Shown one piece after another: positions 1 through 10,282 of a stretch of DNA of 64,000 nt. The position numbers and the translations under genes are program-made. The DNA is from Paenirhodobacter ferrireducens (lineage in GTDB: Bacteria > Pseudomonadota > Alphaproteobacteria > Rhodobacterales > Rhodobacteraceae). The stretch covers positions 62,001 to 126,000 of the forward strand of contig NZ_SAVB01000008.1 in assembly GCF_004022265.1 (NCBI RefSeq), given 5' to 3'. Each line of letters starts with the position of its first letter. Within the stretch, counting starts at the first letter, position 1. The notes beneath the pieces are model-generated. The model was given only the letters and a program-made list of their open reading frames with translations. It was not told the origin of the DNA and did no database searches.

Positions 1-2063
1 TCCCAATTCTCTTGAGCGTTTTTCCCAAGTTTCCTAATCAGTGCGGCCGCGAGGACATCGTAGATGAATGAGTTCGTGGATCCAGCGGCGAGGACTTCTC
101 TCGCAAATGATTCGGCATCCTCAAGCAACCCGCGTGCAAGACAGATTGACGCAAGCTCGCGAGCGGGAGATGCGCTGCCTGGCGATAGCCGGTAGGCCTC
201 ACGGAAGAAATTCTCGGCGATTGGCAAATTCCCTTTCAACCTTTCACGAAAGCCCTTCAAGAAGTTGATGTTGCTCTGCGCAAATGCGTCACCTCCATAA
301 CCTTCCAATAACTCGATGCCGCGCGTAAATTCATCATCATCAAATCGCCTGGACGCTGCTAGGCACAGATACCGACATGCCGTAACGCGACCTTTGAAGG
401 AAAGACGTTCAGACCTATTTAGGGCTTCTTTGGCTAGCCTTATAGCTTCCGTATAATCGCCCTGATCGTATTTCTCCTTCATCAACCAAACGAAATGAGA
501 TGGGAGAATAAGAGCGGATACGTAGGACTGCGCCTCAATGCCGGAGTCGATCGAAGAGATGATCGCGGTATCAAGAAGCTGAATCGGTGCAGTTCCATCC
601 CCGAAGCGAACATTTAGGCCGTCTGCAATTGCACTCACTGCTCGACGCACCTCCGACGTCGAAGCCGCAGCCCGAGGATCTTTTTCGGCCGCAATTCTCA
701 AGGGGGGGGCAATTTTGTATACAGACCCGGCTGTTTCCAAAACATGAAGGTCGATCAGCCGCTCGAGAGCCTTAGCTACTTGTTCAGGGGCCAAGTCGCA
801 TCCGGCGACCAGCGTCTCAAAGTCTAGACTCGGAACCATTGTTAGGACTGCAACTACCTTTCTCTCATCATCGTTTAGCTCAATCTGATGAAGATATTCC
901 GTTCCCTGCCGATGTTTCCAAATATAAAACTCATCCGCTTCCGCCAAGAACACGTCGAGCGTGCGGGCCTGGATTTCCTCAACTATCCGGTAGTGATTGT
1001 ATGGGTGACCCTCGCTCATCTCCGTCAGTTGATCAACCTGAGCGGGATTTGCCGAAATGCCCGCTGCCGATATAACTTTTGACATTAACCGGCGCGATGT
1101 TTTATGGTCGAATGATGTTAGATTGGCATAGGCAACATCATTTCGTCGAAATCGCATTGGCATCATTCTGCGCGCCACAACGGCAAGTGGCGGGTGCGGG
1201 CGGTTGGCTATCTCTTTGATAACCGACTCCGCATCCGGGGTGAAATCGCCAGAGTCCTCTAATAGCCCGCCCTCATCCTCCATAATTAAGGCTTCTCCTT
1301 GCGAGATAAACGAACTAATTAGATCTGCTACTGTTTTGGCTTTTTTCTCGGGCGCCTGCATCGAGAAGTCAAGGTCATACGCCTGAAGATTTTTTACAGA
1401 AATATTTGGATGGGCTGCGAACAAAACCAATCTAAATAATTCTTCAATACCCACATCGGATGGAATAGAAACTTTGGGAAAAACCTGGTTCACTTCAGGA
1501 AACTGGTCGGAGTAAAACTTTCGCACAAGAGTGCGGCGTCCAGACCCATAGATTCCAGATACATATAGCGCCTTGGATGGCGGCCGATTTGGGTCAGCTG
1601 TTTGCGCCTCCAGTGCTTCAATTTCCCTCTCTCTCCCAATGAATGGATGCGCGCCCATTTGCTTTTCAGAACCAACTGAAATCATGGTTCCTTGAATCAA
1701 TCTGGCGGCGCTTTCTGGCGATATTTGTTTGCGAACAATATTAAATAGCTTAAGCACAGACGATGCACGCTGGAAGGATGTCTCATCGAGGCATATTGGC
1801 AAAATGCGTTGAATCGTTCCCCTTGCGGCGAGCTCTATCGCCAATCCCGTCTCGAAGTCTACATAATGTGAGTCAATCGCCGGGCCGCTAAGAAAAATAC
1901 AAAATATATCTGCACGATTTAGAGCCTTGATGATTGCTGCTGAGTTCAAGATTCCCGCGTCGAACGTCTCGGAATCAAGCTCGTAGGTTCCAGGCTTCAG
2001 TTCATGTGCAACTGCCTCAACGAAGCCTTTGTCTACAGAGGAATGGGAAAGAAACACACGCAT
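1..2063 (-). CDS. TIR domain-STAND NTPase-TPR protein, C-terminus cut by the window edge
   Basis: An open frame of about 687 codons runs without a stop off the left edge. Residues 2-115 form a TIR domain: FLSHSSVDK at 5-12, a conserved DAG at 35-37, and SHYVDFE at 65-71, where E71 sits in the position of the catalytic glutamate of NAD-cleaving TIR domains. HPFIGREREIEAL (139-151) opens a STAND-type P-loop module with a degenerate Walker A, GIYGSGRRT (170-178), in which the usual Lys-Ser/Thr is Arg-Arg. ALIMEDEGG (258-266) is a Walker B-like segment. From about residue 520 the sequence is alpha-helical and TPR-like. Two ATGs are adjacent (2066 and 2063); AAGG precedes the second by 7 bases, so I use 2063. 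Known TIR-STAND proteins sense phage and deplete NAD. That role is inferred here from architecture and its defence-island neighbours. Confidence 0.82.
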   Translation of the reverse strand, partial: MRVFLSHSSVDKGFVEAVAHELKPGTYELDSETFDAGILNSAAIIKALNRADIFCIFLSGPAIDSHYVDFETGLAIELAARGTIQRILPICLDETSFQRASSVLKLFNIVRKQISPESAARLIQGTMISVGSEKQMGAHPFIGREREIEALEAQTADPNRPPSKALYVSGIYGSGRRTLVRKFYSDQFPEVNQVFPKVSIPSDVGIEELFRLVLFAAHPNISVKNLQAYDLDFSMQAPEKKAKTVADLISSFISQGEALIMEDEGGLLEDSGDFTPDAESVIKEIANRPHPPLAVVARRMMPMRFRRNDVAYANLTSFDHKTSRRLMSKVISAAGISANPAQVDQLTEMSEGHPYNHYRIVEEIQARTLDVFLAEADEFYIWKHRQGTEYLHQIELNDDERKVVAVLTMVPSLDFETLVAGCDLAPEQVAKALERLIDLHVLETAGSVYKIAPPLRIAAEKDPRAAASTSEVRRAVSAIADGLNVRFGDGTAPIQLLDTAIISSIDSGIEAQSYVSALILPSHFVWLMKEKYDQGDYTEAIRLAKEALNRSERLSFKGRVTACRYLCLAASRRFDDDEFTRGIELLEGYGGDAFAQSNINFLKGFRERLKGNLPIAENFFREAYRLSPGSASPARELASICLARGLLEDAESFAREVLAAGSTNSFIYDVLAAALIRKLGKNAQENW

Positions 2064-2183
2064 CATTTTACCTTTCGTGGACAGCCGGTATCGTCTGATG
2101 GGCGGCCTGAAATAGCAAGCATGGGATTATCTGGGCACGCCTGTGCTGCTGAGAAAGACCAACAAGGCAGGGTGCTCGGCACC

Positions 2184-2395
2184 TCACTCATGATGATCCA
2201 CCTGCGTCGCCATCTCCGGATCGTTGGCCAGATTGACGCGGCGGTGGGAAGCGCGGTGCCCGGAAAGCATGTCCGCGTCCTGCGCACAGCCGACGTTCGT
2301 GTCGCGCGCGGCGAACGGCTGCTCCCCGCCCTTAGTGACTGCGACGAGAGGTGTGACGTCGGCTGCATTTCGCCCCCACCCGCCCCATCAGGCGA
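2184..2395 (-). other. Orphan coding-like frame in the gap between endonuclease and TIR-STAND genes
   Basis: The 320-base gap between the endonuclease stop and the TIR-STAND start is GC-rich, unlike the TIR-STAND gene. On the minus strand it contains about 70 codons without a stop, with strongly GC third positions, ending in a TGA at 2184. The C-terminal peptide reads ANDPEMATQVDHHE. There is no convincing start codon or ribosome binding site; the frame opens after an in-frame TGA inside the end of the endonuclease gene. I do not recognise it. It could be the 3' remnant of a gene lost when the TIR-STAND gene was inserted, or a chance frame. Nothing else is visible in the gap. Confidence 0.25.
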
Positions 2396-3764
2396 CACCG
2401 CGCCAGGCCTCCAGGTTCGGCTGCACGATCTCATCGCAGAACCGCCGGAAGGTCAGGACGTTTTGATGTCCTGCATATTCGGTCTCTCTGGCGTCCATCA
2501 GACTTTCGGGGATCACCAGCTGCACGCCAATCCCTTCCATGTCCTGGATTGCATTGCCGGCGATATTTTCATCCACCGTCGTCAGGTAGAGCCTGCGGTT
2601 ACCTTTCTCTCGCTCGACCTGTTTCCAGCGCTCGCGCAGTGTCGTTTTGGCGCTCAGGATAAGCCCCGTCGCGGCGAGGGCATCCGCCCTGCTGACGAAG
2701 GCTAAAGACGGCAGAATGAAGTCGGGGCGTTTCTTTGCTTCGATCACCACCTGCTTTTCAAACGGGATCTGCCCACCGCGCAGCATGGCCTCGATGTGGT
2801 GCTCATAAGAGTAGCCGGCCCGTGACTTTCGTTGCTGGCTCGCAGACAGCATCAGCGCGTCGATCCGGGGCAGCTCGTTGACAAGCTGCCGGATCATCTC
2901 TGCGACGGTCATCCCCCGGGGGGCATCGCCCAGAACGATCCGCACCAGGTCGACCGCGCGCTCGCGCCGCTGAAAGGTCCGGAACATTTCCCATTCGATG
3001 CTGCGGCTGATCTCGCGCAGGGCATCTCCGGGGCGTTCGATGGCAAAGGGGTCGAGAACTTCCAGTCCATGGATCTCAAGGTACCGTGCAAGCGCCCGGC
3101 GGGCGAGGTCCTCGGTCCCGGGCATGGCGGAGGTCCGGGCAAAATCTGCAATCGTCCCGGCCTGCCATGCCGCAATCAGCTCGGAAGCAAAGTCCAGAAC
3201 GCGGTCCTGTTCCTGTGCCCGGATAGCCGCGGGCTCGAACTCTCCGATCAGAAAATCCGGTGGGATGTCGAGTTGTGCAAGGAGCAGCTCGGCTTCATCG
3301 CTCGCGGAATCCACGGTCAGGCATTCGTAAACGGTGCCTTGCTCCTTTCCGTATCGCCCCATGACAAGGAAGGATGCCGGTGAAAGCTGTCCGAAGCACT
3401 CCTTCGGCAGCCGGGTCATATGCGTCTCAGGGCCCTTGCTCGTGTAATGCACGATCCGGGCTTTCCTGTTCTGCCTGCCATCCAGAGCCTGAGGCCAGAC
3501 AGTATCGAACAGGGCCTCCCGGATCGGCCTGGCGGCCGGATCCTCGCGTTCCTTTTCCTCCAGGGCCGGGAAAAAGCCGCCGTCTCGATGGTCCGCCGGA
3601 ATGTAGATCCCGGCCTGGTGCTTGTTGGCATACCGCGCCCAGTCCCGGTCATTGTTCGAGAGTTTCTTGACAAGGACACGTTCTGCCCGGCCGAGCAGGT
3701 CCGTCAGAAGTCCGGCCTGTCCGGAACCCTCGCCGTCGAAATCAAAAATGCCTTGCTCGTTCAA
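2388..3764 (-). CDS. EcoRII-type (type IIE) restriction endonuclease
   Basis: This 458-residue protein matches the two-domain plan of EcoRII (404 residues). The N-terminal part has KKLSNNDRDW and HQAGIYIP (33-56), which resembles the start of the EcoRII effector-DNA-binding domain. The C-terminal nuclease domain has RKSRAGYSYEHH (312-323), KKRPDFILPS (344-353) and AKTTLRERWKQV (372-383), giving the expected catalytic set of an acidic residue near 321, D348 and K373. EcoRII cuts CCWGG and needs two sites for activation. The same target is likely here because a Dcm-like methylase and Vsr sit in the same operon, but the sequence does not prove it. It starts at TTG 3764, four bases after the vsr stop, so translation is probably coupled. 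Confidence 0.85.
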   Translation of the reverse strand: MNEQGIFDFDGEGSGQAGLLTDLLGRAERVLVKKLSNNDRDWARYANKHQAGIYIPADHRDGGFFPALEEKEREDPAARPIREALFDTVWPQALDGRQNRKARIVHYTSKGPETHMTRLPKECFGQLSPASFLVMGRYGKEQGTVYECLTVDSASDEAELLLAQLDIPPDFLIGEFEPAAIRAQEQDRVLDFASELIAAWQAGTIADFARTSAMPGTEDLARRALARYLEIHGLEVLDPFAIERPGDALREISRSIEWEMFRTFQRRERAVDLVRIVLGDAPRGMTVAEMIRQLVNELPRIDALMLSASQQRKSRAGYSYEHHIEAMLRGGQIPFEKQVVIEAKKRPDFILPSLAFVSRADALAATGLILSAKTTLRERWKQVEREKGNRRLYLTTVDENIAGNAIQDMEGIGVQLVIPESLMDARETEYAGHQNVLTFRRFCDEIVQPNLEAWRGVA

Positions 3765-3768
3765 AGTA

Positions 3769-4239
3769 TTAACTGCCTGCTTCTGTTTTCAGGCCTGCAA
3801 GTGTCAGCCTCTGACCGTCAGAACACAGCCAATCGGACAGCGAGTCAATCACGGCGTCCGCCGGCAGTTTTCCGCGGCCCTTCAGAGCGCATTCCCAGAT
3901 CGTGGCGATGCGCCAGCCGCCAGCGAGGAGCATGGCGTCATTCCGGGCGTCCCGCTCCATGTTGCCGGTGATCTTGACGCGCCAGAATTCCTGCCGCGTT
4001 GCGGGCCAGCGGAACAAAGGGCAGCCGTGGCCGTGCCAGAAGCAGCCGTTCACGAAGATCACGGCATGATGTTTCGGAAGCACGAGGTCGGGCGTCCCCG
4101 GCAGCCTGCGGTCGTGAAGCCGATAGCGAAACCCCCGGGCATGCAGTCCGCGCCGGATCTGCATCTCTGGCCCGGTGTCGACGCCCCGGATGGCCGACAT
4201 GTTGCGGCTCCGGGTCTTGTCGTCGTGAACGTCAGCCAA
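3769..4239 (-). CDS. vsr: Very short patch repair endonuclease
   Basis: At 156 residues this is the usual Vsr length. The protein nicks DNA 5' of the T in T:G mismatches made by deamination of 5-methylcytosine, and so repairs damage at the sites methylated by the neighbouring methylase. PGTPDLVLP carries the catalytic aspartate D51. IFVNGCFWHGHGCPLF (61-76) carries C66, H69, H71 and C73, and IWEC carries C117; these line up by number with the active-site and zinc residues of E. coli Vsr. Position 64 is Asn where E. coli Vsr has His. The start is a TTG overlapping the last 8 bases of dcm, a classic coupled arrangement. The gene lies between the methylase and the endonuclease. Confidence 0.93.
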   Translation of the reverse strand: MADVHDDKTRSRNMSAIRGVDTGPEMQIRRGLHARGFRYRLHDRRLPGTPDLVLPKHHAVIFVNGCFWHGHGCPLFRWPATRQEFWRVKITGNMERDARNDAMLLAGGWRIATIWECALKGRGKLPADAVIDSLSDWLCSDGQRLTLAGLKTEAGS

Positions 4240-5491
4240 CTTTCCTCAGCCGTTCTGCGCCGATCAGAGACAGGATATGCGGTGCCATGACCCGCGCGAC
4301 TTCGGCAAAAACCGGCACCGCGACCGAGTTGCCGAACTGCTTATAGGCCTGGGTGTCCGAGACCGGGATGCGGAAATCGTCCGGATAGCCCATCAGCCGC
4401 GCGCACTCGCGCGGGGTCAGCCGGCGCGGGTTCTGGCCCTCGCCGCGGCTGACCAGAATCTCCGAGCCATCCTTGTAATAGCGCGCGGACAGCGTGCGCG
4501 AGATGCTGTCGCCATCCACCATCCCGAAGCCAAAGCCGTTTCCCTTGGCCTTATGTTTTTCGGCATAGGCCTGCAGATAGGCCCAGAGCTTGTCGGTCAG
4601 AGTGTATTTGTCACTCACCACGGCATCCGGCCCGACGGTGTAGTGGCTTTCCGGGCGCTCCGTTCCGTTTTCGGGGTGCAGGATGTGGCGCAGACGCCTG
4701 TTGCCATAGGCCGGCAGCTTTACATCGTCGAAGCTGAACCCGGTGGCTTCCCGGAAGCCAACCATGACGATCCGCTCGCGGTGCTGCGGGACAAAATGCC
4801 CGGCATCGATGATCCGGGTCTCAAGGGTATAGCCGAGCTCTTCGGTCAGCTTGCGCCGGATCACGTCGAATGTCCGGCCTTTGTCATGGCTTTTCAGGTT
4901 CTTGACGTTCTCAAGCATGAAGGCCGCAGGGCGGTGGTGCATCAGGATGCGCAGCACGTCGAAGAACAGCGTGCCCTGGGTCTCGTCATCAAAGCCATGA
5001 GCCCGGCCGAGCGCATTTTTCTTCGAGACGCCGGCAATCGAAAACGGCTGACAGGGGAAACCTGCGACCAGAACATCGTGCGGGGGGATCTCTGCCGCAT
5101 CAATCGCCCGGATATCCCCGACAGGCGGATGGTTGTCGGGGAAGTTGGCCATGTAGGTCTGCTGGGCGTATTTGTTCCACTCCGACGTGAAGATGCACCG
5201 GCCGCCAGCGCTTTCCATCGCGCGCCGCAGGCCACCGATCCCCGCAAACAGGTCGATGAAGGTAAAGGTCTTTCCGGCATCCGCGGCGTTGCGTTTGCGC
5301 TCGATCTCCATGTTCAGCAGGCGGATGACGCCTTCGCGGGGGATTTCCTCGCCGCGCTTCCAGCGATAGATGTGCCCCTCAGAGTAACCAAGGGCGCGCG
5401 CGGCTTCGGGGACAGAGTATCCGGCCTGGGCCAGAAGTGTCGAGAAATCAGCCTGCATGTGCCCGCGTCCATCTGGGAATTTTTCTGACAT
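4232..5491 (-). CDS. dcm: DNA (cytosine-5) methyltransferase with N-terminal HTH
   Basis: This 419-residue protein protects host DNA from the endonuclease encoded downstream. Residues 15-60 (YSVPEAARALGYSEGHIYRW) form a helix-turn-helix like the N-terminal extension of M.EcoRII and M.SsoII, which represses its own promoter. The catalytic domain shows motif I FAGIGG (82-87), motif IV GFPCQPFS with catalytic C147, motif VI ENV (194-196), motif VIII QHRER (236-240) and motif X QFGNSVAVPV near 391-400. An upstream in-frame ATG at 5599 would add 36 residues unlike the family. I prefer 5491, although its ribosome binding site is poor; 5458 is also possible. It is the first gene of the dcm-vsr-endonuclease operon. 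Confidence 0.93.
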   Translation of the reverse strand: MSEKFPDGRGHMQADFSTLLAQAGYSVPEAARALGYSEGHIYRWKRGEEIPREGVIRLLNMEIERKRNAADAGKTFTFIDLFAGIGGLRRAMESAGGRCIFTSEWNKYAQQTYMANFPDNHPPVGDIRAIDAAEIPPHDVLVAGFPCQPFSIAGVSKKNALGRAHGFDDETQGTLFFDVLRILMHHRPAAFMLENVKNLKSHDKGRTFDVIRRKLTEELGYTLETRIIDAGHFVPQHRERIVMVGFREATGFSFDDVKLPAYGNRRLRHILHPENGTERPESHYTVGPDAVVSDKYTLTDKLWAYLQAYAEKHKAKGNGFGFGMVDGDSISRTLSARYYKDGSEILVSRGEGQNPRRLTPRECARLMGYPDDFRIPVSDTQAYKQFGNSVAVPVFAEVARVMAPHILSLIGAERLRKVG

Positions 5492-5669
5492 AATGTCGCG
5501 ATGAAGTGTCAGCTGCAAGAACAAACATCGAATTAACGGCGCTTGAAATTGGCCGGACTGGCGCATGCCGTCGTCGGCAACCGGCTCTGGAGCCCGCAAT
5601 CGCTCGCTGATTTGCGTTGGCGGGGAGCGCCCTTCGGAGAAGGCACGCTCGACGCATTAAAGGCCGGGA

Positions 5670-6239
5670 TCAGTCTTCACTTTCGTCAGGTTTGAACAGG
5701 GCATCATAGCAAAGCATGAGGCTGGCGCCGTCCACATCAGTCTCTCCCTCGGAGCGGCCCATGTAGAGCGTGACCAGCGCGTCGGCTTCCTCTGTCGTCA
5801 GATCCGGATAGGCTTCGGCGACGTGTCGCGCCACCTTCAGGGTGAGCCGGCTGAAGGCGGTTTTCCAGTCCTGCGAAGGTCCGTAAGGTGCTCCGGTGAA
5901 CAGCTTGTGCAGGTCTATGCCGAAGCTCACGTATAGCGAGGAGAGGAAATCAGAAGTTGGGGGGCGCTCTCCGGTCTCGTACATCTGGAGGCTCCGCAGT
6001 GCGACGCCAAGGCGATCTGCCATTTCTGACTGACGCAGCCCAAGCCTGAGGCGAAGAGACTTCAGGTTTTCGGAGAGGCGCAGCTCATCCTGCCGCTCGG
6101 TTTTTCCGATATCCATCGAATCTTCGGCGAGTGTTTCCGCAAAGTGCTGATCTGCCAGTTCAGCCCATTGCTCGTCGGAGAGCTTGTCCTGACCGGGCAG
6201 CTTGCGTGGTTTTTTGAACCTAAATTGCTGTTCCGGCAT
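5670..6239 (-). CDS. XRE-family transcriptional regulator of the island
   Basis: A 189-residue protein with a Cro/CI-type helix-turn-helix near residues 58-115 (LRLRLGLRQSEMADRLGVAL followed by RSLQMYETGERPPT). A charged N-terminal tail precedes it and a C-terminal region of unknown function follows. The ATG at 6239 is preceded by GGAG seven bases upstream and by a good promoter. It lies between the restriction-modification operon (same strand, 178 bases downstream) and the divergent excisionase-integrase pair. It may therefore control the restriction genes, the integration genes, or itself. I cannot tell which; it is longer than typical restriction-modification controller (C) proteins of about 80-100 residues. 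Confidence 0.8.
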   Translation of the reverse strand: MPEQQFRFKKPRKLPGQDKLSDEQWAELADQHFAETLAEDSMDIGKTERQDELRLSENLKSLRLRLGLRQSEMADRLGVALRSLQMYETGERPPTSDFLSSLYVSFGIDLHKLFTGAPYGPSQDWKTAFSRLTLKVARHVAEAYPDLTTEEADALVTLYMGRSEGETDVDGASLMLCYDALFKPDESED

Positions 6240-6270
6240 GATTTTTCTCCAATCGCCTCTTATGCGCAGC

Positions 6271-6299
6271 ATTATGCGTATTTTGTGTTGATGCTGCAA
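6271..6299 (-). promoter_or_regulatory. Predicted promoter of the XRE regulator
   Basis: On the minus strand TTGCAG (6294-6299) and CATAAT (6271-6276) are separated by 17 bases, close to the sigma-70 consensus, and lie 32 bases before the ATG at 6239. TATGCG occurs twice around the -10 (6261-6266 and 6274-6279), which could be part of an operator. Confidence 0.6.
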
Positions 6300-6305
6300 G
6301 CGATG

Positions 6306-6315
6306 TTTGCGCAAA
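6306..6315. promoter_or_regulatory. Perfect 10-base palindrome, possible operator
   Basis: TTTGCGCAAA lies just upstream of the -35 of the regulator promoter, in the 236-base region between the divergent regulator and excisionase genes. A perfect palindrome here is a reasonable binding site for the dimeric XRE protein. This is inferred from position only. Confidence 0.35.
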
Positions 6316-6475
6316 TACTGTACGCACGATCCTGCACATCTGTCTGATTCGAGGTTCGTCTGTTTCGAAAAATTCATATCCGGAGGTGCGTTTTCGGCGC
6401 GCCTCACTCTCTGCGACCATCTCGGGCATGGTTTTGTTTCCGCCCCTGAAAGAGCATCTGGAAGGCCTTTGGCAA

Positions 6476-6754
6476 ATGGGAACTCAGCATCATAACTTCG
6501 CTGACATGATTGGATTGGTCGCGGTTGCTGATCTCGCACAGCTGTGGGGCTACTCCGGGCCCAATGATGCCTTCCGGACATTTTGCATGCGCATCGGCGT
6601 GCAGCATGTGCCGGGTCGCCCTGGCTGGTTTGATCCGCGCCATGTCCGGCATCGCCTTGATCTGGCCCATGGGATCATCTCTGAGGCACAGGTGAAGGAT
6701 GAGAAGCCGCAGTCACTGGTTGAGAGAAGGAGGATGCGCCTTGGTACGAAGTAG
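6476..6754 (+). CDS. Small excisionase/HTH-like protein upstream of the integrase
   Basis: About 92 residues from ATG 6476; ATG 6428 (108 residues) is an alternative start. The core, DMIGLVAVADLAQLWGYSGP followed by a basic FDPRHVRHRLD segment, looks like a short winged-helix or helix-turn-helix protein of the kind found just before integrases. GGAAGG precedes 6476 by about ten bases. The gene overlaps the integrase start by 14 bases, so the two are co-translated. A recombination directionality factor is the likely role. This rests on position and size rather than a recognised family. Confidence 0.6.
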   Translation: MGTQHHNFADMIGLVAVADLAQLWGYSGPNDAFRTFCMRIGVQHVPGRPGWFDPRHVRHRLDLAHGIISEAQVKDEKPQSLVERRRMRLGTK

Positions 6755-7805
6755 GCTCCCGAAAGGAGTCCATGCAGTTCGCCGCCCCAAGATTGACGGT
6801 GTGACATTTCATTTCTACGCATGGCGTGGCGGGCCAAAGTTCTGGACCGATGTCCAGCACTACCCGACCACTCCCGCGTTCTTCGCTGCATATTCCGATG
6901 CGATAGAGAAGCCAAAGCCATCGGCCTATATGACGCCGCAGATGGTGGATGAATTCCTGAGCAGCGCTCATATGCCCCGTGGGGAGCGAACCCGGCAGGA
7001 TTACCGAAAATGGGCACTGCGTTTCGCCGAAGCCTTTGAGGACGATCCGGTGGAGATGTTCGAGGAGCCCGAGTCCAGGGGCGAGGTGAACGAGTGGCGT
7101 AAACGATGGGCGCACTCGCCGCGCCAATATGACTATGCCGGGACCGTAGTTGCGCGGATTCTGAACTGGTTGTGGGAAGAAAAACGTGCGATCCGACAAC
7201 ACCATTGCGCCGGTTTTACCAAAATCTACAAGGTTGATCGCTCGGATATCGTCTGGACAAAAACGCAAAGGTCCACGCTTTGCAAGAAGGCTCCGAAGTG
7301 GGTTTGCCGTATCCTCACGACAGCTTGTGAAACCGGCCTGCGTCCAGGTGACCTGATCCGTCTCACATGGTCGCACATCGAGGATACGCCTAAAGGGCGC
7401 CGGATCCGCGTTCGTACCAACAAGAGAGGCCGAATAGCAACAATTCCGGTGACACCCGAGATGGCTTCAGTTCTTGATTCAACGCCACGTGACCGGGATC
7501 TCATCCTTGTCAGCGCCGGCGGCCGTCCGCTCACCGAGCACCGCGCATCGGAAGGGGTTCGGCAGTGGCGTGACAAGGCCGGTTTGACACCTGCCGCACT
7601 TGGATTCGATCTGCGCCTCCAGGATGCGCGTGGAACCGCGGCGACACGCCTGCTTAACGCGGGGCTCACGCTCGCTCAGATCGCGTCTTACATGGGCTGG
7701 AGCGTGAAGCATGCAGCAGCTGTTATTGAGCACTATGCTCGCGTGTCACCTGATGAAACAGATGCTGTTCTGGTGAAGCTGGCAGAAGCCACGCAGGGCG
7801 CCTGA
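6741..7805 (+). CDS. int: Tyrosine-type site-specific recombinase (integrase)
   Basis: A 354-residue phage-type integrase. LPKGVHAVRR with HFYAWRGGPKFWTD (6-37) is the N-terminal arm-binding part common in alphaproteobacterial integrases. The catalytic domain has R201 (TGLRPGDLIRL), K228 in a TNKRGR hairpin, the second box LQDARGTAATRL with R297, W320 in MGW, and the nucleophile Y332 (IEHYARV). In box II the usual His of HxxR is Gln294, and the usual His before Tyr is Trp. The start is TTG 6741, preceded by AGGAGG with seven bases spacing, which is far better than the upstream ATG at 6699. It reads toward tRNA-Cys, its presumed integration target. Confidence 0.92.
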   Translation: MVRSRLPKGVHAVRRPKIDGVTFHFYAWRGGPKFWTDVQHYPTTPAFFAAYSDAIEKPKPSAYMTPQMVDEFLSSAHMPRGERTRQDYRKWALRFAEAFEDDPVEMFEEPESRGEVNEWRKRWAHSPRQYDYAGTVVARILNWLWEEKRAIRQHHCAGFTKIYKVDRSDIVWTKTQRSTLCKKAPKWVCRILTTACETGLRPGDLIRLTWSHIEDTPKGRRIRVRTNKRGRIATIPVTPEMASVLDSTPRDRDLILVSAGGRPLTEHRASEGVRQWRDKAGLTPAALGFDLRLQDARGTAATRLLNAGLTLAQIASYMGWSVKHAAAVIEHYARVSPDETDAVLVKLAEATQGA

Positions 7806-7864: not shown

Positions 7865-7883
7865 CTAAGTGATTGAAAAGATT

Positions 7884-7957
7884 TGGAGGCGGGTACCGGA
7901 ATCGAACCGGTCTTCACGGATTTGCAATCCGCTGCGTAACCTCTCCGCCAACCCGCC
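7884..7957 (-). tRNA. tRNA-Cys (GCA), CCA encoded
   Basis: The minus strand folds as a complete 74-base tRNA. The acceptor stem is GGCGGGT (7957-7951) with ACCCGCC (7894-7888), followed by T and an encoded CCA (7884-7886). The anticodon stem GCGGA/TCCGT encloses the loop TTGCAAA, giving anticodon GCA. The T arm contains TTCGATTC. Its 3' end faces the integrase gene, which makes it the probable attachment site of the island. Confidence 0.97.
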
Positions 7958-8878: not shown

Positions 8879-10282
8879 ATGACGCGCAAGATCCTGAAAC
8901 CGCTTCTTTTCGCCACCGTGGCGGGCCTCGGGCTGATGACGTCCACGCTTGCCGTCTCGGCCGAGACGCTCGCTGATGCGCTGGTCTCGGCCTATCGCAA
9001 CTCGCACCTGCTCGAACAGAACCGCGCCACGCTGCGCGCCGCTGACGAGGATGTGGCGCAGGCGGTGTCGGCGCTGCGCCCGGTGCTGCAGTGGACCGCC
9101 GATTACGGCTATTCGGCGACCGACACGACGATTGCCACCTATCGGGCGCAGGGCAAGAGCTACGACCGGCTCACCGCCTATACCTCGCTTGTCGCGCAGA
9201 TGACTCTTTATGATTTCGGCCGCACCCGGCTGGCCATCGACATGAAGAAGGAAGCCGTTCTGGCAACGCGCGAGGCGCTGCGCTCGGTCGAGCAGAGCGT
9301 GCTGCTGAGCGCGATCAGTGCCTATACCAGCGTCAAAAGCACCGCCGAGCAGGTCTCGATCAACGAGAACTCGGTGCATGTCTATGGTGAGGACCTGAAG
9401 GCCGCGCGGGACCGTTTCGAGGTCGGCGAGGTGACGAAGACCGACGTGTCGCAGGCCGAGGCGGCGGAGGCCGCGGCGCGGGCAGCGCTGGCGGCGGCGC
9501 GCGGCAACTATCAGATCGCGCGCGAGGCCTACAAGGCGTCGATCGGCCATTACCCCGACAAGCTGTCGCCGCTGCCGAAGGCGCCGACGCTGCCGAAGTC
9601 GCTTGATACCGCGCGTGAGACCGCGCTGCGCAATCACCCCTCGATCAAGCAGGCACAGCACACCGTCAGCATGTCGGAGCTGGGCGTTTCGGCCGCGGCG
9701 GCTGAGCGGCTGCCGACGATCGACGGTTCGGCCGGCTTCACAAAATACGAAGGCGGCAACAAGGCGACGAATGTCGGCGTCGGCCTGACGCAGACGCTCT
9801 ATGCCGGCGGCAAACTGTCCTCGGCGCATCGCCAGGCGATCGCGAGCCGCGACCAGGCGAAGGCGGCGCTGAGCGAGGCGGGGGTCGAGATTGCCGATTC
9901 GGTGGCCCAGGCCTGGGCGCAGATCGGCGTCTATCAGGCGCAGATCACTGCTTATGACGAGCAGATCTCGGCGGCGAAGATCGCCTATGAGGGCGTGAAG
10001 GAAGAGGCGACGCTGGGCGCGCGTACCACGCTTGACGTGCTCGACGCCGAGCAGACGCTGCTTGACGCCCGGGCCTCGCGGATCACCGCAGAGGCCGATC
10101 TGCAGGTTGGCTACTATCAGCTGCTTTCGGCGATGGGTCTGCTGACGGTCGAAGATCTGAAGCTCGGGATCCCGACCTATGATCCGGCAGCCTATTACAA
10201 TGCGGTCGAGAACGCGCCGGTCACCAGCGTGCGGGGCAAGAGCCTTGACCGTGTGATGCAGGCGATCGGCAAGAAGCCCTGA
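8879..10282 (+). CDS. tolC: TolC-family outer membrane efflux/secretion channel
   Basis: A 467-residue protein. Residues 1-28 are a signal peptide with a hydrophobic core and a likely cut after VSA. The mature protein shows two similar halves rich in long alanine/glutamate helices (for example VTKTDVSQAEAAEAAARAAL near 185-205), as expected of the periplasmic helical barrel. A conserved RTTLDVLDAEQTLLDAR segment near 380-397 is typical of TolC. It forms a trimeric channel for type I secretion and drug efflux together with inner membrane partners that are not encoded next to it. GAGG lies before the ATG. A terminator-like hairpin follows the gene. Confidence 0.93.
   Translation: MTRKILKPLLFATVAGLGLMTSTLAVSAETLADALVSAYRNSHLLEQNRATLRAADEDVAQAVSALRPVLQWTADYGYSATDTTIATYRAQGKSYDRLTAYTSLVAQMTLYDFGRTRLAIDMKKEAVLATREALRSVEQSVLLSAISAYTSVKSTAEQVSINENSVHVYGEDLKAARDRFEVGEVTKTDVSQAEAAEAAARAALAAARGNYQIAREAYKASIGHYPDKLSPLPKAPTLPKSLDTARETALRNHPSIKQAQHTVSMSELGVSAAAAERLPTIDGSAGFTKYEGGNKATNVGVGLTQTLYAGGKLSSAHRQAIASRDQAKAALSEAGVEIADSVAQAWAQIGVYQAQITAYDEQISAAKIAYEGVKEEATLGARTTLDVLDAEQTLLDARASRITAEADLQVGYYQLLSAMGLLTVEDLKLGIPTYDPAAYYNAVENAPVTSVRGKSLDRVMQAIGKKP

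Follow-up and report, generated by a model that had tools for sequence, protein, structure and literature searches.

Does the large minus-strand gene at the left end of this DNA represent a new type of defence system, or is it a distant relative of one that already has a name? The window, that is, the whole stretch of 64,000 nucleotides analysed (C60:62001-126000 of the genome of the host, Paenirhodobacter ferrireducens), starts inside this gene. An earlier note on the same DNA had described it as open at the window edge, and the open reading frame does run off the left edge, covering window positions 3-2066 (688 aa). Extending the contig leftward, which that note had advised for recovering the full C-terminus, gives a complete gene at C60:61562-64066 that encodes 834 aa with zero internal stops, 438 bp of it lying left of the window. 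The frame opens with two methionines and homologues start at the second (position 2063, the end coordinate in the earlier note), which is likely the start of translation. Since the earlier note counted from this second methionine, its E71 is E72 in the 834-aa numbering used here. Within the window, the gene has the following features.

1..2066, minus strand: 5' 688 codons of the TIR-NLR gene (ORF; PADLOC model PDLC03015, E=3.6e-27; BLASTP to E. coli TIR-NLR, 4e-35)
1722..2066, minus strand: TIR domain, residues 1-115 (Pfam TIR_2, E=1.2e-11; AlphaFold2 model with Foldseek matches to TIR domains)
1851..1853, minus strand: codon of Glu72, putative NADase catalytic residue (Glu in 21/21 aligned members)
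1530..1556, minus strand: Walker A segment GIYGSGRRT, with Arg177 at the Lys position (Arg in 21/21 members)
882..1661, minus strand: STAND-like NTPase region, approximately residues 136-395 (TIR-NLR match of the partial sequence; STAND/NLR fold matches)
3..551, minus strand: TPR region, residues 506-688 in the window and on to 834 outside it (Pfam TPR_19 and others; helical repeats in the model)

The TIR-STAND-TPR architecture read from the sequence in the earlier note holds up, both by profile and by fold. In Pfam, TIR_2, TPR_19 and TPR_14 are above cut-off, while AAA_16 is weak (4e-4) and below it. AlphaFold2 models, which were built from an alignment of the window sequence with related loci, have a pLDDT of 82 for residues 1-140 and 83 for the 688 window residues. 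For residues 1-140, and thus for the stretch (2-115) in which the earlier note had placed it, a TIR fold is predicted, the best PDB folds among the matches listed being the bacterial TIRs AbTir (bound to 3AD), TcpB, ThsB and PdTIR. The 688-residue model shows helical repeats in the TPR region, and the best of its Foldseek matches listed are 6mfv (a STAND-TPR protein), RPP1 (a TIR-NLR of plants) and CED-4, while Avs5, a SIR2-STAND protein, ranks lower; this agrees with the proposed likeness to bacterial NLR-like proteins. The TM-scores of this model are low (0.2-0.4), as expected from domains that are posed differently, and the fold evidence is therefore counted domain by domain. Upstream, no small gene is convincing in the long stretch between genes (2067-2387), and its single weak promoter-like match (L002 14155-14126, 9/12 positions) carries no evidential weight.

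Where the earlier note did not hold is in its suggestion that the gene, which it could not match to a named system, may be a new type. Searching defence-system models, as it had recommended alongside domain profiles, identifies the whole protein with PADLOC TIR-NLR. Moreover, when tested alone, residues 135-505 (2.8e-9) and residues 506-834 (7.8e-6) each match this model and no other, the former also matching the solved structure 9m0n (1.2e-9), and several close orthologues cover most of the profile (e.g. L017, positions 3-762 of 824). TIR-NLR is described as a single-gene TIR-STAND-TPR system from the psu-int hotspot of P4-like satellites that, tested on its own in E. coli, protects against phages (Rousset et al., 2022; PMC9122126). 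The E. coli protein used here for comparison is encoded in strain KL53, where a psu remnant flanks its gene on one side and a tRNA-Leu-associated integrase on the other, and it scores 1879 bits over positions 1-824 of the PADLOC model; from this location and this match, we infer that Rousset et al. tested this same protein. It is also all but identical to the chain solved as 9m0n/9umd, an entry deposited only as "Tetratricopeptide repeat protein". This structure is absent among the 50 Foldseek matches listed for the 688-residue model (structure library to 2026-04-08).

The alignment of the window protein with its E. coli counterpart shows 23% identity over 727 aa in BLASTP, which leaves the last 130 residues unaligned, and ~20% identity globally, so that, at the level of sequence, homology spans the TIR, the STAND region and the greater part of the TPRs. 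The window protein and its close relatives form one subclade (100/100) in a 20-row tree, and the clade with strong TIR-NLR matches is separate (100/100), three long branches being of unsure position. The low global identity and the separate clade are what an unnamed system merely resembling bacterial NLRs would predict, but such a system would also have to share with E. coli TIR-NLR (i) collinear homology over TIR, STAND and TPR, (ii) the same unusual P-loop and the same Glu and (iii) what appears to be the same single-gene form, and the integrase-tRNA setting, which makes it highly improbable. In view of the PADLOC match, the alignment with the E. coli satellite protein and the published architecture, a new type is unsupported. 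The gene encodes a bacterial relative of the immune receptors of plants and animals and, although distant, can be recognised as a member of TIR-NLR, a known kind of system that is already named, phage-tested, single-gene and, for an E. coli member, structure-deposited. The two proteins share domain order, the GR[RK][ST] P-loop, the conserved Glu and carriage by a mobile element with an integrase at a tRNA. They differ in that the window copy is carried by a MobV-type element that also bears a restriction system, and not by a P4-like satellite, and belongs to its own alphaproteobacterial subclade, ~20-23% identical to the E. coli group. Since both clades are well supported and separate, trigger and outcome may differ between them, and the divergence of the C-terminal TPRs makes a different trigger likely.

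Other systems with a comparable layout fit less well. Avs5 (AVAST type 5; PMC12931631), which appears among the fold matches, shares an effector followed by STAND and C-terminal repeats, an effector that consumes NAD and an NLR-like logic. However, its effector is SIR2 and not TIR, and its Walker A is normal (GPAGSGKT), in contrast to the GR[RK][ST] of the TIR-NLR family. Membership in Avs was rejected on the GRRT found in place of canonical GK[ST] and on the lack of a PADLOC Avs match. Plant TIR-NLRs such as RPP1 (among the top fold matches listed) and Roq1 also combine a TIR with a nucleotide-switch core and sensing repeats, but these are NB-ARC and leucine-rich repeats, whereas the window protein has TPR in place of LRR and Pfam finds no NB-ARC, NACHT or LRR match in it, which sets it apart from eukaryotic NLRs. 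Finally, Thoeris ThsB likewise has a bacterial TIR domain, but it belongs to a two-gene signalling system and is only weakly similar to the window TIR by profile; this assignment was rejected too, the window gene having no ThsA-like neighbour.

What could this protein do? Glu72 and Ser7 of the TIR box are invariant in the 21 aligned members (21/21, including E. coli TIR-NLR), and in a profile alignment, in which Cat1 was also aligned, Glu72 falls on a Glu of AbTir, from which its catalytic role may be inferred. The nucleotide-binding site is more unusual. The Walker A lysine is replaced by arginine in all members, including the solved E. coli protein, GR[RK][ST] is seen in nearly all of them, and Walker B has one conserved acid only, Asp264 (20/21 members). 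Without the usual lysine in the P-loop, classical ATP hydrolysis is doubtful. It is conceivable, if unlikely, that the whole family, window copy included, is a lysine-replaced STAND group (GR[RK][ST], single Walker B acid) that would switch by nucleotide binding/exchange or by ligand-driven assembly instead of ordinary ATP hydrolysis, and that its alphaproteobacterial branch would recognise a phage product other than that of the E. coli branch. This family-wide change in the nucleotide-binding loop bears on how these bacterial NLRs are switched on. No remark on this arginine in TIR-NLR was found in the literature covered, which does not include the publication behind 9m0n, and no newness is claimed for it.

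Taken as a whole, the evidence is probably best explained by a divergent member of the single-gene system TIR-NLR, on an island with EcoRII-like restriction-modification genes, that would sense infection, oligomerise and cleave NAD+. At rest, the STAND module and the C-terminal TPR array would keep the TIR inactive; a phage product would then bind the TPR array, upon which the STAND core would change state and an oligomer assemble, bringing together TIRs that would cleave NAD+ via Glu72. The predicted outcome is abortive, with cell arrest or death stopping the infection. That repeats sense a phage product and the TIR destroys NAD, as the earlier note had proposed, matches the published hypothesis for TIR-NLR, in which TPRs are proposed to sense infection and the TIR to degrade NAD+ (PMC9122126). 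Phage defence by the family is published for the member tested in E. coli only (PMC9122126), and the alphaproteobacterial copy may be active as well.

Bacterial TIRs can deplete NAD+ or make a signal molecule, the latter being exemplified by ThsB of Thoeris, which makes a cADPR isomer. A TIR that makes such a ThsB-like signal to activate a separate effector, with no NAD+ depletion of its own, is an alternative, for which speak that the TIR domain is matched, if weakly (0.004), by ThsB profiles and that a ThsB complex is among the best folds listed. It is nevertheless improbable, since a search of solved structures with the sequence profile of the TIR yields Cat1 and AbTir but not ThsB, and no ThsA-like partner is recognised in the island. 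A STALD search of the host genome was empty as well, which is weak evidence because this search also matched no control. TIR-NLR moreover needed no second gene to protect E. coli (PMC9122126). An NAD+-cleaving TIR is therefore preferred, in keeping with a fold that is nearest to NADase TIRs by fold search and profile alignment. No recognised partner is present within the island, and no conserved partner gene was seen beside the homologues examined.

As for the surroundings, the earlier note had placed the gene in an integrated defence island of AT-richer DNA, beside a restriction-modification operon and an integrase at a tRNA, all of which was borne out, and the island is supported as mobile by its att repeats, its MobV-like relaxase and tRNA-Cys sites in relatives that lack it.

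2388..3764, minus strand: EcoRII-C type restriction endonuclease (PF09019, 2.3e-26)
3769..4239, minus strand: Vsr mismatch endonuclease (PF03852, 1.5e-29)
4232..5599, minus strand: Dcm-like C5 methyltransferase with N-terminal HTH (PF00145, 3.8e-83; NF007772, 4e-127)
5670..6581, minus strand: repressor-like HTH regulator, probably starting inside this frame (HTH_3, 5.9e-9; phrog_8)
6699..7805, plus strand: tyrosine integrase of the island (PF00589, 5.8e-16; phrog_1, 1.5e-24)
7877..7931, no strand: right att repeat (55 bp), which overlaps tRNA-Cys in its 3' part (exact repeat; left copy C60:54368-54422)
7884..7957, minus strand: tRNA-Cys (gca), the integration site (ARAGORN; three genomes of the genus lack the island here)

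The 55-bp att repeats are exact, lie 15,509 bp apart and contain the 3' part of tRNA-Cys. The island also carries a replication-initiator-like gene (L002:4617-5525) and a MobV-like relaxase (L002:5816-7243, plus strand, which is C60:55816-57243). The relaxase scores below the curated cut-off but, along half its length, shares 46% identity with a recombination protein of small plasmids. These two genes point to a mobilizable integrative element with ties to small plasmids. The island is a 15.5-kb integrative element in tRNA-Cys, and probably a mobilizable one. In three same-genus genomes, tRNA-Cys and its downstream genes are present, DNA similarity starts at the repeat and there is a single repeat copy, and the island is therefore absent; a site that is cleanly empty on both flanks was not found, the left flank of G046 being rearranged so that it aligns only from tRNA-Cys onward. 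Arranged much like an operon, the genes for the EcoRII-C endonuclease, Vsr and the Dcm-like methylase (2388-5599, minus strand) may encode a system that acts on CCWGG, by analogy with EcoRII/Dcm. Adjoining the TIR-NLR gene is a phage-type phosphoesterase (L002:10471-11169, plus strand; phrog_547, 3e-44; weak PdeM-like match), and at L002:8022-10190 (minus strand) lie three island genes with no useful family matches (a BPSL0067 match for 9588-10190 is sub-cut-off), the first two of which have apparent signal peptides by eye.

The TIR-NLR gene has 49.9% GC, where the island as a whole has 60% and its flanks 66-68%, and it probably did not arrive together with its neighbours. Such a separate arrival, together with a branch length (0.83) that is the longest in its subclade, might be expected of an island passenger that has decayed and no longer functions. 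Nonetheless, the 834 codons are intact, family motifs are retained and model confidence is good, all of which speaks against decay and renders it very improbable.

Close relatives of this TIR-NLR (38-45% identity) form an alphaproteobacterial subclade, found on Zymomonas plasmid pZMOB03, in a Rhodospirillum MAG, Komagataeibacter europaeus, Seohaeicola, Acetobacter musti and the same-family genome G201, and on two IMG/VR contigs. Matches of near-full length are rare, being present in 2/298 genomes of the family and 4/385 sampled from the class, and a scan of the genome collection with a three-member alignment returned only four close relatives. Among annotated phages the search found zero relatives, whereas IMG/VR contigs did contain some. 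The earlier note's defence reading would have suffered had homologues sat in non-defence contexts only, but several are in defence or mobile contexts (inspected singly, without a background rate): the Acetobacter copy adjoins SngA-SngB-SngC of Shango, the Seohaeicola copy has a C5 methylase alongside and tRNA-Ser nearby, the K. europaeus copy is near a relaxase and a VirD4-type coupling protein, and the two IMG/VR copies adjoin phage lysozymes. Around L015 and L030, no recognised defence genes were seen by eye. A phage-tested family known from an E. coli satellite hotspot now gains a distinct branch in Alphaproteobacteria, carried by integrative elements, plasmids and prophages, which adds no new kind of system.

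Within the close clade, conservation is 58% for the TIR, 39% for STAND, 43% for the first TPR half and 32% for the last 143 residues, a pattern that fits a conserved effector with a faster-changing far C-terminus. Diversification of the whole repeat array as a sensor finds only partial support, since the core-side TPR half is not faster than the STAND core. Other TIR proteins, one with TIR_2 and one of the CAP12/Pycsar type, adjoin TIR-NLR relatives at L031:223-1026 and L036:4943-5791, and the host genome itself has, outside the window, a second short TIR_2 match (1.9e-12; G000:C5:17641-17982, L053) in a 131-aa frame.
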